The position numbers were made by a program, and so were the translations under genes. Positions 4,532 through 38,326 of a stretch of DNA of 64,000 nt are shown here, one piece after another. Numbering within the stretch: the first letter of the stretch is position 1; each line of letters starts with the position of its first letter. The DNA comes from Pseudomonadota bacterium (GTDB taxonomy: Bacteria > Pseudomonadota > Gammaproteobacteria > CALCKW01): the NCBI GenBank assembly GCA_039196715.1, contig JBCCUP010000011.1:1-64000 (forward strand), given 5' to 3'. The notes under the pieces are model-generated. The model made no database searches. It had not been told where the DNA came from and worked only from the letters and a program-made list of their open reading frames with translations.

Positions 4532-5563
4532 TTACTGCGGCAGGACAGAGACCTCGTCGTCCCACTTCTTCAGCAGGCGTTTGCGCTCGGCACTGGAGCC
4601 GTACTTGGCAAAGTCGTAGTCGATCAGGGTGATCGACGCGAGGTCCGGTGCACTCGGGGAGGTTTCAGCGCCCATGTTGGAGGGCACCTGGAACGCATTC
4701 ACCTGCAACGCGAGCGTCTGCGCCTCGGCGGTCAGTGCCCAGTCGTAGAACGCTTGCGCGCTCTCGGGGTTGCGGCCGTCCTTGATGATCGACATGGAGC
4801 CGATCTCGTAGCCGGTGCCTTCGCACGGGGCCACCACGGTGATCGGGAAGCCCGCGACCGCCTGCTTGACCGCGTCGTGCATGAAGACGATGCCGATGGT
4901 GGTCTCGCCGCGTGCCGCCGCCTTGATTGGCGCCGAGCCGGACTTGGTGTACTGGTTGATGTTGGCGTGCAGGCCCTTCATGAACTCGAAGCCCTCGTCC
5001 TCGCCAAAGAGCTGCACGATGGTCGCGAGCGTGGTGTAGGCGGTGCCGGAGGAGTTCGGGTTGGCCATCTGCACGTGGCCCTTGTACTCGGGCTTCAGGA
5101 GGTCCTTCCAGCAGCCGGGCTCGGGCAGGCCGTTGGCGGCCAGGAGCTCGGTGTTGTAGCCGTAGCCGAGCGCGCCGGAGTAGATGCCGATGGTCTTGTC
5201 GCCAGCGGAGGTCGCCTGTGAGATCGACCAGTCGTTCAGCTCGGAGCGCATGTCGCTCACGTAGGCTGCGGTCAGACCCTCTTCGGCGGCCTGCAGGTGC
5301 GGGTCACCGGTGCCGCCCCACCAGACGTCGCCCTTGGGGTTGGTGGCCTCGGCCTTGATCTGGGCGAAGGTCTCGCCGGAGCTCTTGCGGGTCATCGACA
5401 CGTCGATGCCGGTGGCATCTTCGAAGCTGTTGACCATCAGCTGGCACCAGTCTTCCTGCGCGCTGCAGTAGAGCGTCATCTTGTCCTTGGCCACGGCGAC
5501 CGGTGCAGTGCCGGTGACCATGACAGCCAGGATGCTGGATGCCAAGAGTGTGCGTTTCGTCAT
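4532..5563 (-). CDS. Periplasmic solute-binding protein, family 1 (FbpA/phosphonate-type)
   Basis: The product of 343 residues begins with a Sec signal peptide (basic MTKR, hydrophobic core, cleavage near AVAKDK) and continues as a family-1 binding protein. The segment DVWWGGTGDPHLQAA near residue 80 is characteristic of the FbpA-related subgroup that lacks the double-tyrosine iron site. I therefore suspect an organic anion or aminophosphonate ligand and not free Fe3+, but this is inference. The ATG at 5563 is preferred over upstream in-frame codons because AGGGAG precedes it and the signal peptide starts there. It is the first gene of the importer operon. Confidence 0.85.
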   Translation of the reverse strand: MTKRTLLASSILAVMVTGTAPVAVAKDKMTLYCSAQEDWCQLMVNSFEDATGIDVSMTRKSSGETFAQIKAEATNPKGDVWWGGTGDPHLQAAEEGLTAAYVSDMRSELNDWSISQATSAGDKTIGIYSGALGYGYNTELLAANGLPEPGCWKDLLKPEYKGHVQMANPNSSGTAYTTLATIVQLFGEDEGFEFMKGLHANINQYTKSGSAPIKAAARGETTIGIVFMHDAVKQAVAGFPITVVAPCEGTGYEIGSMSIIKDGRNPESAQAFYDWALTAEAQTLALQVNAFQVPSNMGAETSPSAPDLASITLIDYDFAKYGSSAERKRLLKKWDDEVSVLPQ

Positions 5564-31998: not shown

Positions 31999-32925
31999 TC
32001 ACAGCAAGGCTGTGCCGCCGGCCTTGCGGTCGATGACCACGGCGTTGTGGGCGTGCAGGCTCTCCTGGTGCTCCACCTTGAACGCGTAGTCGATCAACTC
32101 CGGCATCCGTTCGAAGCGCGCTTTCAGTCGCCGTGCCGCGTCTTCACAGAACATCAGGTTTTCGCCGTTCAGCCGGGCAAATTCCTGCTCGTCCTGGCGC
32201 TTCACTGCGGTTTGCACCGCGGTGACGAGCGTCTGCTCGACGTGCCTCACCAAAGCGCTGAGGTCGGGCCAATGTGAATCGGTGAACGCGAGTCGGAGGT
32301 AGGCGTAGGAACGCTGGCTGTGCGGTGTCGCGACCGACCCGGCGGCCGACTGCGCCCAGGCCAGCAGGTCGGCCTTGTCGACCGAGTCGCCTGGGAACCG
32401 CTCGTCGATCGCGGTGGCGTAGAGTTGCCGGGTCAGGGCGGCGGAGCACGGGCAGGTGCTCGAGTAGGGCACGGTGAGCTCGAAGGTGTAGCGCGTGTGC
32501 TCGGGGTTTTTTTCTGCGCGGATCACGACGGGGTAGGCTTGAAAGCCGTGCTCGTCGCTCAACAGGGCCGGCTTTCGCAGGCACAGTTCGAAAGACAAGC
32601 TGAGTTTGGCGGTGTGGCCACTGCCGCTTTGCGAGGTGATGGCCGCATCCAACAGGCCGTCCAGGGTCGTTTTTGTACACGCTGTGTCGGCCAGGCCCGT
32701 GACCAGTCGGTACAGCCGGGACATGTGAATGCCTTTGGCGTTCGGGTCGTCCAAACCGACGTACACGTCGGCTTTCGCGGGGGTGGCGGCGTCCGCGCTG
32801 GCGGCATCCGCGCTCGATGGCAAGTGCAACGGCACCGCAATGCCCTCCATGCCGACCCACTGCAGGGCCAGTGGCGTTTCGGCGTCGGTGTCAGCAACCA
32901 CGTCGGGAAGCGTGGGTGAAACCAT
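31999..32925 (-). CDS. folE2: GTP cyclohydrolase FolE2 (type IB)
   Basis: The product of 308 residues is a zinc-independent GTP cyclohydrolase that makes dihydroneopterin triphosphate for folate synthesis when the zinc enzyme FolE fails. The family metal/substrate Cys is in YSSTCPCSAALTRQL near residue 150, followed by PHSQRSYAYLRL. I chose the ATG at 32925 because GGAG lies nine bases upstream and the family N-terminus starts there. It is divergent from zur, with a Zur box in the gap, which agrees with induction under zinc limitation. Confidence 0.93.
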   Translation of the reverse strand: MVSPTLPDVVADTDAETPLALQWVGMEGIAVPLHLPSSADAASADAATPAKADVYVGLDDPNAKGIHMSRLYRLVTGLADTACTKTTLDGLLDAAITSQSGSGHTAKLSLSFELCLRKPALLSDEHGFQAYPVVIRAEKNPEHTRYTFELTVPYSSTCPCSAALTRQLYATAIDERFPGDSVDKADLLAWAQSAAGSVATPHSQRSYAYLRLAFTDSHWPDLSALVRHVEQTLVTAVQTAVKRQDEQEFARLNGENLMFCEDAARRLKARFERMPELIDYAFKVEHQESLHAHNAVVIDRKAGGTALL

Positions 32926-33212
32926 CAGACGTCTCCAAACAGGTGAATCTGGCGCATGTGCGGTGTCGCGGGGGTGCGTGTTATCGCGCCGGCTCGTGCG
33001 CGTCAAGGGTGGTCAAGGGGGCACAGCACACTGTGCCGCGTGCGTCACCTGTGCGCCGAAGTGTCAGCAGGTGTACCAGCATCGCGACACGGGTGTGTCG
33101 TGGAGCTGTCCGCCAGCACACCACCGGATGCAACGTACGTGTCGGCCCGCCGGCTCCTGGCGGGGTGCACGCAAAAACCGGTACCAAGGCAGGCGCCACG
33201 GGGTGTTATACT

Positions 33213-33229
33213 ATAACACTTGATGGCGG
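33213..33229. promoter_or_regulatory. Zur box, perfect palindrome
   Basis: GTGTTATA and TATAACAC flank a central C as an exact 17-bp palindrome, matching the known proteobacterial Zur operator core TGTTATANTATAACA. It lies 12 bases before the zur start codon and about 290 bases from the folE2 start. TATACT and its complement TATAGT within it could serve as -10 elements for either direction, so a bound Zur would block both. Confidence 0.9.
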
Positions 33230-33241
33230 CGCGAGAGTGTC

Positions 33242-33652
33242 ATGAGCACCCCCTCGACCCTGAAAAACAAAATGCACCTGCGCGTGCTGACGTTACTGCG
33301 TCGGAGTCGCGTTCCGATGTCGGCGTACGACATCCTGGCGAAGCTGCAAATCGACAACCCCAAGGTTGCGCCGCCGACCGTGTACCGGGCACTCAAAGCG
33401 TTGATCGAGGGCGGCCAGGCGCACAAGGTGGAATCCAAGAAGGCCTACATCGCCTGCCGCTGTGATGCGCACGACCAGCCCGCAATCATGGCCATTTGCA
33501 ACGACTGCGGTGTTGTGGAGGAACGTGTGGCCCCGGAGCTGATGGATACCTTGAGTACGCTTTCAGAGCAGTCCGGGTTCGAGCCGAGCCGAACCGTGAT
33601 CGAGATCGAAGGCTTGTGCGGTTCCTGCAGCGAGGCGAACGACGCCCCGTGA
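33242..33652 (+). CDS. zur: Fur-family zinc uptake regulator Zur
   Basis: The 136-residue protein has the Fur winged helix (MSAYDILAKLQ, PPTVYRALKALIEGG) and two zinc-binding Cys pairs, ICNDCG near residue 86 and LCGSC near residue 127. The Zur assignment rests on the Zur box just upstream and the znuCBA genes downstream. A GCGAGAG site precedes the ATG. It represses its own operon when zinc is sufficient. The stop codon overlaps the start of a small membrane ORF (GTGA). Confidence 0.93.
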   Translation: MSTPSTLKNKMHLRVLTLLRRSRVPMSAYDILAKLQIDNPKVAPPTVYRALKALIEGGQAHKVESKKAYIACRCDAHDQPAIMAICNDCGVVEERVAPELMDTLSTLSEQSGFEPSRTVIEIEGLCGSCSEANDAP

Positions 33653-33783
33653 CACCCTCCTGGCACACTGATGTGAAACTCATCACCCTGGGCGCAGTGC
33701 CGCGCCTGTTGGCAGCGGGTTGCGTGATTGCACTGCTCTGGGCCGGTTTTTTCTGGGCGACGTCCGCTCCGGGGGGACTGTGA
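33649..33783 (+). CDS. Small 44-residue single-span membrane protein, unknown
   Basis: This short frame begins with GTG overlapping the zur stop codon (GTGA) and ends in TGA overlapping the GTG start of znuC (GTGA again). It encodes a short polar N-terminus and one hydrophobic helix (residues ~17-36, with LLAAGCVIALLWAGFFWA). I do not recognise the family. Its exact fit between two coupled genes and its membrane-protein character argue that it is translated. It might be a small accessory of the Znu importer or only a translational relay to znuC. Confidence 0.6.
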   Translation: MTPSWHTDVKLITLGAVPRLLAAGCVIALLWAGFFWATSAPGGL

Positions 33784-34523
33784 GCCACGCTATCGCCTTC
33801 GACAACCTGACGCTGGGCTACGGCCAGCAGCCCGCCGTGATGAACCTCGACGCGCGCATCGCCGAGGGCAGCCTGACCGCCGTGGTCGGCCCCAACGGCG
33901 CCGGCAAATCCACACTTCTCAAAGGCATTATCGGCGCGCTGGCGCCGTTGACAGGCAAGGTGCGGCTCCCGTCGGTGGCGCGCCAGGAGGTGGCCTACCT
34001 GCCGCAACAGTCCGAGCTCGATCGCAGCTTTCCGATGTCGGTGGTTGACCTGGTCGCCATGGGACTGTGGCACGACATCGGTGCTTTCGGCGGCCTGCGG
34101 CGGGCCCACCGCGCGCGGGTTGACGAAGCGATCGCGACAGTTGGCCTGACGGGGCTGGAAAGCCGCGCGATCGGGTCGCTGTCCGGTGGGCAGCTTCAGC
34201 GTGCCCTGTTTGCCCGGTTGCTCTTGCAGGACGCGCGGCTGGTGTTGCTCGACGAACCGTTTACAGCGGTGGACTCGCGCACCGCCGCCGACCTGATCGA
34301 CGTGGTGCGCACCTGGCACGGCGAGGGGCGCACCGTGCTCGCGGTGCTGCACGATGACACCACGGTGCGTGACCACTTTCCCGACACCTTCATGCTCGCG
34401 CGTGAACTGGTTGCCCACGGGCCGACCGCACAGGTGCTCAACGCCGGCAACCTGTTCAAGGCGCGGCAGATGTGCGAGGCCTGTGAAGGGCCGCCACACA
34501 CCTGCGGACGGGAGCTCAGCTGA
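33780..34523 (+). CDS. znuC: Zinc ABC importer ATPase ZnuC
   Basis: The 247-residue ATPase has Walker A GPNGAGKST, signature LSGGQLQR and Walker B LVLLDEPFTAVD. The switch His is in VLHDDTT. The C-terminal tail MCEACEGPPHTC adds Cys and His residues that could sense or bind zinc; I see no such tail as a general rule in the family. The GTG at 33780 is preceded by a GGGGGGA site and overlaps the small upstream ORF. znuB begins on its last base. Confidence 0.93.
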   Translation: MSHAIAFDNLTLGYGQQPAVMNLDARIAEGSLTAVVGPNGAGKSTLLKGIIGALAPLTGKVRLPSVARQEVAYLPQQSELDRSFPMSVVDLVAMGLWHDIGAFGGLRRAHRARVDEAIATVGLTGLESRAIGSLSGGQLQRALFARLLLQDARLVLLDEPFTAVDSRTAADLIDVVRTWHGEGRTVLAVLHDDTTVRDHFPDTFMLARELVAHGPTAQVLNAGNLFKARQMCEACEGPPHTCGRELS

Positions 34524-35389
34524 TGTGGGAGCTGCTGATCGCGCCGTTTGTCGATTTCGGGTTCATGCGCCGGGCGCTGTTCGGCTGCCTTGCGATTTCA
34601 CTCGGGGCGACGCCCGTCGGTGTGTTCCTGCTGTTGCGTCGCATGAGCCTCACAGGCGATGCCATGGCGCACGCGATCTTGCCGGGTGCCGCGCTGGGCT
34701 ACCTGGTGTCGGGTTTGTCGTTGGGTGCGATGACCGTCGGCGGATTGATTGCGGGGTTGACCGTCGCGCTGTTGTCGGGCGTGGTCTCTCGGCTGACCAT
34801 CCTGCGTGAGGACGCGAGCCTCGCGGCCTTCTATCTGATTTCGCTCGCGCTCGGCGTGTTGATCGTGTCAACCCAAGGCAGCAACGTCGACCTGATGCAC
34901 GTGCTGTTCGGCACGGTGCTCGCGCTCGACGATGCGGCGCTGACCTTGCTCTGCACCATCACCAGCTTGTCGTTGCTTGTCTTGGCTGTGCTCTATCGCG
35001 TACTGGTGCTCGAATGTGCCGACCCCCAGTTTCTGCGCTCCGTGAGCGGGCTGAGTGCGCTCACGCACATCGGCTTCCTCATGCTTGTCGTGATGAATCT
35101 GGTGTCGGGCTTCCATGCGCTCGGCACCTTGATGGCCGTTGGCATCATGATCCTGCCGGCGGCCGCGGCCAGCCTCTGGGTTGCCAACATCGGCAGTTTG
35201 ATTGCCGTGGCGGTTTCGACTGCCGCGGTGTCGAGTGCCGCCGGCTTGTTGCTGTCCTTCCACTACAGCCTGCCGTCCGGGCCCGCGATCATCCTCGTGG
35301 CGGGCGGCGCGTATGTGGTGTCCCTGATTTTTGGGTCCGTGGGCGGATTGGTCCCGCGTGCCCGTGTCTCCCACCTTGCCGAAAATTGA
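34523..35389 (+). CDS. znuB: Zinc ABC importer permease ZnuB
   Basis: The product of 288 residues is an ABC-3-family permease with about eight hydrophobic segments and the family hallmark RRMSLTGDAMAHAILPGAA near residue 36, plus GTLMAVGIMILPAAAASLW near residue 205. The ATG overlaps the znuC stop codon by one base. It forms the zinc channel with ZnuC and receives zinc from ZnuA. Confidence 0.95.
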   Translation: MWELLIAPFVDFGFMRRALFGCLAISLGATPVGVFLLLRRMSLTGDAMAHAILPGAALGYLVSGLSLGAMTVGGLIAGLTVALLSGVVSRLTILREDASLAAFYLISLALGVLIVSTQGSNVDLMHVLFGTVLALDDAALTLLCTITSLSLLVLAVLYRVLVLECADPQFLRSVSGLSALTHIGFLMLVVMNLVSGFHALGTLMAVGIMILPAAAASLWVANIGSLIAVAVSTAAVSSAAGLLLSFHYSLPSGPAIILVAGGAYVVSLIFGSVGGLVPRARVSHLAEN

Positions 35390-35400
35390 AGAGAATTGAG

Positions 35401-36546
35401 ATGTAGACTTTTCGCAAAACAGCCAGCGCGCTGGCCGTCGCTACGCTGGCAGCCGCATTGCCGCTCGCTGCCGTCGCCCAAGACAAGATCCCCGTGGTGA
35501 CGTCGTTCACGATCCTCGAAGACATGGTGGCCAACATCGGTGGCGAGCACGTTGATGTGACCACGCTCGTCGGTCGCAACGGCGATGCGCACGTGTACCA
35601 GCCGACACCGGCCGCGGCACGTGCGGTCAAGGAAGCCGAGGTCATGGTGGTCAACGGCCTGGCCTTCGAGGGCTGGTTGGATCGTCTCTCCGAAGCGGCG
35701 GGGTTTGAAGGCACGCTCGTGGTCGCGACCGACGGCATCGAACCGATCGGCTTCGAAGACGCGCACGGTGATCACCATGATGATCATCACGGCGAGGATG
35801 AGCATCACGACGAGCACGATGAGCATCACGGCGAGGACAAGCACCACGACGAGCACGATGAGCATCACGGCGAGGACAAGCACCACGACGAGCACGATGA
35901 GCATCACGACGAGGACAAGCACCACGACGAGCACGATGAGCATCACGGCGAGGACAAGCACCACGACGAACACGATGAACACCATGATGGGCACGACGAC
36001 CACCACGGGCATGACCACGGCGAATTCGACCCGCACGCCTGGTTGAGCCCGACGCTCGCGGTCACGTACGTCGACAACATCACCGCGGCACTGGCCAAGG
36101 CGGCACCGGAGCACGCCGGCGACTTCTACCAGAACCGCGCGAACTACGTGGCCGAGCTCGACGCGGTCAAGGCAGAGATGACGGCGCTGTTGGCCGATCT
36201 GCCTGAAGACCGACGCACTGTCGTTACCTCACACGACGCGTTTGGTTACTTCGGTCGGGATTTCGACTTGAACTTCCTTGCGCCGCAGGGGTATAGCACG
36301 GAGAGCGAAGCGTCGGCGAAAGACGTGGCCGAGCTCATTGAACACATGCGTGAAGACGGCGTCAAAGCGGTGTTCATGGAGAACATCACCGACAGCCGTT
36401 TGCTCGAGCAAATAGCCAACGAAACCGGCGCGACCATTGGTGGTACCTTGTACCCGGGTGCGCTGTCCGAGGAGGGCGGTCCGGCGGCGACGTACCTCGA
36501 GCTGCTGCGGCACAACGCGGCCACGGTGGCATCCGCGTTGAAATGA
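35401..36546 (+). CDS. znuA: Zinc-binding protein ZnuA with an in-frame amber codon at position 2
   Basis: ZnuA delivers periplasmic zinc to ZnuB. The ATG at 35401 follows znuB by 11 bases and begins a normal frame, but codon 2 (35404-35406) is TAG. Directly after it comes a complete signal peptide (TFRKTASALAVATLAAALP, cleavage near AVAQDK) and an intact mature protein. A Lys codon AAG at position 2 would restore the usual MKTFRK start. The only in-frame ATG/GTG/TTG downstream in the signal region is TTG at 35458, which would remove most of the signal. Zinc ligands are present: GDAHVYQP, DPHAWLSP and VTSHDAFGYFG. A His/Asp/Glu-rich loop (residues ~120-210) typical of ZnuA is expanded. The gene is either suppressed, mis-sequenced or a recent null. 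Confidence 0.85.
35791..35985 (+). repeat. Five tandem 39-bp repeats in znuA
   Basis: Units at 35791, 35830, 35869, 35908 and 35947 encode a 13-residue repeat of the form GEDKHHDEHDEHH, with GEDE in the first and DEDK in the fourth. This lengthens the metal-buffering His loop of ZnuA. Near-identical DNA units suggest recent expansion and likely strain-to-strain length variation. Confidence 0.95.
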
Positions 36547-37349: not shown

Positions 37350-38326
37350 TCTCCGTTGGATTGATTGTCGTCGCGGCAATTGCGTTTTTCTGGGCGCTCG
37401 ACATGAACGCCTTCGCGGTCTGGGCTGCGGAGCAGCAGCGCACGTTCCAGAACGCCATGGCCGCTGGGGTGCGTGGCTTGCGCACCGGGCAGCCCGGTGC
37501 GTGGTTTGCCTTGCTGTCAGCCGCGGGGGCCTACGGCTTCGTGCACGCGGTGGGACCTGGCCACGGCAAGTACGTGATCGGTGGCGTCGGGCTCGGCTCG
37601 TCGGTGTCGGCGTCGCGGCTCGCCGGCATTGCGCTCGCGTCGAGCCTCGGCCAATCGATCTGGGCCATCATTATCGTCTACGGCAGCTTTTCCGTGCTGA
37701 CCTTCTCGGCACACCAGCTGACCGCATTCGCTGAAGACATCCTCGCGCCGGTGAGTTACCTGGCCGTGGGCCTGGTGGGGTTGCTGTTGGCCTGGCGCGG
37801 TGTGCGCAAGGTGTGGCCGGCGTTGAAGCCAAAGCCGGCGGCCGGTGGGTGCGCTTCCAGCCACTCGCACCACTCGGATCACGCTCATCACTCAGATCAC
37901 GCACATCATTCGGATCACGCACACCACTCGGATCACGTACACCCGTCGGATCAGTCGTGTGGTTGCGGCCACAAACATGCCCCCACACCGGACGAGGTTG
38001 CGCAGCTCACCTCCTGGCGGGATACGCTCATGCTCGTCGGCAGCGTTGCCATTCGGCCTTGCACCGGGGCCATTTTCCTGTTGATCATCACCTGGCAGAT
38101 GGACATCAAATTCGCAGGCGTCGTGGCGGCCATTGTCATGGGCCTCGGTACTGCTGGGCTGACTACGATGGTGGCCGTGTCCAGCGTCGCAGCGCGGGGC
38201 CTCGCTGTGGCCTCGGCAAACGGTCTCGGTGCGGTGGTAACGGCAGTTTCTGCGTTACAAGCGGTGTCCGGTGTGATGATCATGTGGATCAGCTTTCTGC
38301 TGTTCGGTGCGGCCGTTCGCGCTTGA
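37337..38326 (+). CDS. NicO/RcnA-family metal transporter
   Basis: The 329-residue inner-membrane protein has about six to seven helices and the NicO motif FVHAVGPGHGKYV near residue 70, plus a second motif region SVAIRPCTGAIF near residue 237. The cytoplasmic or periplasmic loop between carries a His/Asp/Ser repeat (see the 18-bp repeats) and a Cys-Gly-Cys-Gly-His segment. The family moves Ni2+ or Co2+; the Zur-regulon context suggests zinc here. It is the last gene of the run that starts at zur. Confidence 0.87.
   Translation: MRGLISVGLIVVAAIAFFWALDMNAFAVWAAEQQRTFQNAMAAGVRGLRTGQPGAWFALLSAAGAYGFVHAVGPGHGKYVIGGVGLGSSVSASRLAGIALASSLGQSIWAIIIVYGSFSVLTFSAHQLTAFAEDILAPVSYLAVGLVGLLLAWRGVRKVWPALKPKPAAGGCASSHSHHSDHAHHSDHAHHSDHAHHSDHVHPSDQSCGCGHKHAPTPDEVAQLTSWRDTLMLVGSVAIRPCTGAIFLLIITWQMDIKFAGVVAAIVMGLGTAGLTTMVAVSSVAARGLAVASANGLGAVVTAVSALQAVSGVMIMWISFLLFGAAVRA
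37871..37942 (+). repeat. Four tandem 18-bp repeats in the NicO-type gene
   Basis: Units starting at 37871, 37889, 37907 and 37925 each encode a hexapeptide of the type HSDHAH, giving a metal-binding loop. The last unit changes to HSDHVH. As in znuA, short near-identical DNA units point to slippage-driven expansion. Confidence 0.9.

Follow-up and report, generated by a model that had tools for sequence, protein, structure and literature searches.

A gene for a zinc-binding protein that carries a stop codon directly behind its start codon raises the question of whether the stop controls the gene, silences it or is an error of the draft genome, and what it would mean for zinc uptake in this organism.

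The start-adjacent stop in the zinc-binding protein gene

Within the window, the 64,000-nucleotide stretch that was analysed, direct reading placed an ATG (35401-35403) immediately ahead of an in-frame TAG (35404-35406) on the plus strand. The codons right after the TAG are ACT TTT CGC AAA, and the frame stays open up to the TGA at 36544-36546. This gene, hereafter copy 1, comprises the following features:

35401..35406, plus strand: ATG-TAG (amber) pair, read directly; one TAG within the match
35407..35478, plus strand: signal-peptide coding region, in frame, without ATG, GTG or TTG ahead of TTG 35458
35479..36546, plus strand: mature zinc-binding protein, copy 1 (aztC/znuA), intact, with a His/Asp/Glu-rich loop; matches PF01297 and the AztC model

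Across all 169 contigs of the genome (4.95 Mb), the locus was found once, with TAG 35404-35406 as the sole stop within the match. Copy 1 is a full-length member of its family (PF01297, E 8.7e-73, profile positions 1-263 of 263), and residues H64, H212, H278 and D331 are identical in copy 1, in a related gene of the metagenome-assembled genome (MAG) L035 and in a second copy described below. These four correspond to the metal-ligand positions of AztC and PsaA. The sequence-only reading, which had described an ATG and a TAG followed by a signal peptide and by a zinc-binding protein without further damage, and had attributed the stop to one small lesion, is thus borne out on both points.

By itself, the hexamer ATGTAG is no rarity: it occurs 16 times in the window, both strands counted, compared to 5.2 expected from dinucleotide shuffles (largest value 11), an excess that perhaps reflects codon usage. 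The noteworthy point is the placement of ATG-TAG ahead of an intact gene. We also considered a frame entering from the upstream gene and rejected it, because the upstream TGA (35387-35389) lies in a different frame and the TAG blocks the frame anyway. The segment of copy 1 that encodes the His/Asp/Glu-rich loop (35779-35978) consists of a 39-base tandem repeat (5.1 copies, 95% matches), probably a recent expansion, whose copies may collapse in short-read assemblies.

The surrounding operon encodes an AztABC-like importer

Copy 1 is the last gene in an operon with the order Zur-box-like palindrome, zur, ATPase, permease and binding protein. A folE2-like gene is divergent from the operon, and genes for a DUF1007 protein and a NicO protein lie downstream:

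31999-33006, minus strand: folE2-like gene
33205..33217, no strand: Zur-box-like palindrome GTTATACTATAAC between the folE2-like gene and zur, found by pattern search
33242..33652, plus strand: zur regulator gene (Fur family), PF01475; 105.4 bits with the Zur model, cut-off 167
33720..34523, plus strand: ATPase gene (aztA/znuC), intact; AztA 224.5 bits, cut-off 220
34523..35389, plus strand: permease gene (aztB/znuB), intact, PF00950; AztB 255.1 bits, cut-off 280

The start of the ATPase gene at 33720 is a mechanically assigned TTG, and the actual start may sit downstream. In the nicO gene, an 18-base tandem repeat (37871-37953) codes for a His-rich loop. With the early stop in copy 1, about 1.1 kb of message would go untranslated, which could lower the expression of the two downstream genes if the transcript is common.

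Like ZnuABC of Escherichia coli, the system is a zinc ABC importer associated with Zur and built from PF01297, PF00950 and PF00005 components; however, the window proteins score far under the cut-offs of the ZnuA (92.6 bits, cut-off 268) and ZnuB (66 bits, cut-off 284) models. The similarity to the AztABC importer of the Paracoccus denitrificans AztABCD type is closer: the ATPase passes the AztA cut-off, the permease and the binding protein match the AztB and AztC models best, and the top PDB matches include the structures 5kzj and 5w56/5w57. The latter two are P. denitrificans AztC. Unlike in AztABCD, the permease and copy 1 (273.7 bits with the NCBIfam AztC model, cut-off 350) fall below their cut-offs, the AztD chaperone had no match at E 0.001 in this 96% complete draft, and copy 1 bears a stop. 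Judged by these profile scores the system resembles AztABC, appears nearer to it than to E. coli ZnuABC, and is not classed as AztABCD.

A second, uninterrupted copy behind a Zur-box-like palindrome

A second binding protein gene of the same family (copy 2) is located on contig C28 (C28:6159-7703), starts with GTG at C28:6159, is uninterrupted, and encodes a protein 59% identical to that of copy 1. Upstream of it, at C28:5983, lies the perfect palindrome GTTATGTTATAAC, similar to the palindrome that precedes zur in the window. The pattern search detected seven such Zur-box-like sites genome-wide and none in the reversed control. Another one adjoins a gene for a cobW-type GTPase on C81 (L168:734-2736), next to which a WD40-like protein is encoded, and on C12 (L166:3823-5785) divergent hisI and cysS genes flank a single palindrome. 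Genes of the cobW type, hisI and cysS are typical Zur targets; the C12 pair are possibly zinc-sparing paralogues. Copy 2 differs from copy 1 by about 130 additional residues (HAFEWAGLFELSPGTYTWSF...) inside the His-rich loop (L115:6708-7100, part of C28), and the piece of this insertion that was tested had no NCBIfam match.

The sequence-only reading had further concluded that ZnuA alone would be lost from the regulon, a view that does not hold in the presence of this intact paralogue with its own Zur-box-like palindrome. The 16 kb around copy 2 contain no permease or ATPase of the Azt/Znu type. Four AztB-like permeases are encoded in the genome, of which that of the window is the best match (254.9 bits in the genome-wide comparison), the others reaching at most 194.6 bits; for those on C52 and C89, binding proteins of their own are encoded nearby. 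Since no permease or ATPase gene was detected near copy 2 and the window permease is the best AztB match, copy 2 plausibly uses the latter, and its product probably supplies the Azt-like permease of the window. Such a supply would also account for the intact state of the other operon genes.

The use of one zinc transporter by two binding proteins is known for AdcA/AdcAII with AdcCB of Streptococcus pneumoniae (PMC8416893), where sharing has been demonstrated, whereas here it is proposed from gene content. A point against sharing comes from Paracoccus, in which pairing between binding protein and permease was found to be highly specific for ZnuA and AztC and the permeases were not swappable (PMC7731109); these two proteins, however, are only 25% identical. 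Loss of a zinc uptake gene through a premature stop while another route is left has a precedent in the zupT pseudogene of Francisella tularensis Schu S4 (PMC5786701); zupT belongs to another transporter family, and the remaining route is a different system there and a paralogue in our case.

On balance we favour, at somewhat better than even chances, that the stop is a recent and ordinary loss-of-function allele tolerated through intact copy 2. Ribosomes starting at ATG 35401 would stop at once, so that little or no binding protein would be produced from copy 1. The loss would be tolerated by virtue of copy 2 on C28, which lies behind a Zur-box-like site of its own and whose protein probably delivers zinc to the aztAB transporter of the window. 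Three elements of this account are inferred: the presence of the allele in the organism, its silence, and the supply of the transporter by copy 2.

Relatives, original codon and age of the lesion

Comparison of znuA starts in relatives, which had been suggested as a check, revealed a stop in place of the start just before the signal peptide in none of those with a readable N-terminal part, L035 included. We therefore rejected ATG-TAG as a conserved feature. The operon of L035 is syntenic with that of the window, and its proteins are 50-78% identical; the three genomes of the same genus have distant homologues only, about 35% identical. L035 is a MAG labelled Geminicoccaceae and holds the nearest syntenic operon, while a similar one was not found in the three genus-mates of the window; horizontal transfer, loss and misbinning are possible alternatives for this distribution.

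The residues following the stop in copy 1 resemble those following the L035 start. Moreover, in a DNA alignment the stop adjoins the copy 2 start codon (score 77, compared to a 99th percentile of 71 in shuffles, with much of the score contributed by the signal peptide). As suggested by these alignments, the lesion may be a change in codon 2 or small damage to the start codon itself. The change of AAG to TAG at codon 2 put forward previously is one possible option, but AAG as the original codon is not established, given how near the stop lies to the L035 and copy 2 starts.

A column was counted as conserved when at least 94% of the other 17 sequences agreed in it. Copy 1 has 1 departure in 43 such columns, compared to 0 to 8 departures in 42 to 48 columns for its peers. 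Copy 1 is thus undecayed, a state compatible with a recent mutation, with a reading error or with some remaining function. The lesion, if real, would be recent, since conserved columns show no erosion. Stop codons would arise from 91 of the 3411 possible single changes in copy 1; at the 95% level this puts the neutral divergence at no more than about 10%, a weak bound.

The absence of decay counts against our preferred explanation insofar as it suits a sequencing error equally well as a recent mutation. That the stop arose by a base-calling, consensus or strain-mixture error, with the gene intact and working in the organism, is a serious alternative to which we assign roughly half the weight of a genuine loss. 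The draft comprises 169 contigs, is 96.21% complete and 2.42% contaminated, and has an incomplete tRNA set; one small difference would suffice, and copy 1 is as free of relaxation as other family members. Among the relatives, the draft isolate genome of Pseudomonas fragi F1801 shows similar damage in znuA: a frameshift directly behind the signal peptide (L036, near 4980-5000), which represents either a pseudogene or a sequencing error. Weighing on the other side, a direct sign of error is lacking at the stop, and roughly 150 kb of the genome contained no other clear start-proximal lesion, although this test is insensitive. A codon-use search for genes lacking a start returned two weak flags and scored copy 1 itself below threshold (1.29), so that its sensitivity is low. 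Furthermore, the redundancy provided by copy 2 makes genuine loss equally easy. We retain the loss-of-function allele as the preferred explanation.

Downstream starts and the reading of TAG

The CTG at 35431 and the TTG at 35458 had been proposed as alternative starts. Both are in frame with copy 1, the TTG lying within the signal peptide and being the sole ATG, GTG or TTG between the stop and the mature protein. Shine-Dalgarno-like pairing did not rise above background at 35431, 35446 or 35458; as ATG 35401 also pairs weakly (-2.9, background mean -3.3), the test says little. The proposal thus stands as to frame and gains nothing from anti-Shine-Dalgarno pairing, and we did not adopt a downstream start.

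The genome uses TAG as an ordinary terminator, at the end of 16 of the 77 trained genes, and release factor 1 (RF1) is present above cut-off; on these grounds we rejected an altered genetic code. The amber suppressor tRNA that had been suggested as worth a search did not turn up: no tRNA with anticodon CTA was detected among the 34 tRNAs found, an incomplete set that also lacks tRNAs for Trp, Cys and Ile. Pyrrolysine was likewise rejected, as the best pylS match scored 26.1 bits against a cut-off of 178 and similar sub-cut-off matches occurred in 13 of 14 control genomes.

These data bear on two further explanations. It is rather unlikely, well behind a reading error, that a genuine allele still yields some protein in an unregulated manner, through leaky TAG read-through by a natural tRNA or through weak downstream initiation. 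In its favour, E. coli without a suppressor incorporates Gln at UAG at a low level (cited in PMC8954436), a start at CTG 35431 would retain the hydrophobic part of the signal peptide, and the conserved residues of copy 1 are retained. However, CTG starts yield about 0.86% of AUG output (PMC11497404), pairing at the candidate sites is at background level, a protein started at 35431 would have no positive n-region, and one started at 35458 would have no signal peptide and would not be exported.

We give hardly any credence to ATG-TAG as a programmed element controlling zinc uptake by read-through or a start-stop pause: its position is striking, and start-stop elements are described in eukaryotic leaders, but the pair is absent from relatives with a readable N-terminal end, TAG is used normally with RF1 present, no TAG-reading tRNA was found in the incomplete set, no pylS exceeded the cut-off, and the Zur-box-like site already provides an option for zinc control. 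Equally improbable is the variant in which ATG-TAG is maintained, a small zinc-dependent share of ribosomes passes, and the copy 1 protein appears only when zinc is severely limiting. The idea of the sequence-only reading that a read-through stop would represent a new type of control finds no support. Position is the only point in favour of read-through control, and regulated read-through is very unlikely.

Implications

What interrupts this redundant gene is an ordinary lesion, whether genuine or an artefact, and its reach beyond this genome is small. Finding one copy of a transporter gene cut short by a stop tells little before a genome-wide search for paralogues, and start-proximal stops in draft genomes call for inspection of the reads. 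If the loss is real, the locus would be a neat case in which the role of a transporter's binding protein has perhaps passed to a distant paralogue.
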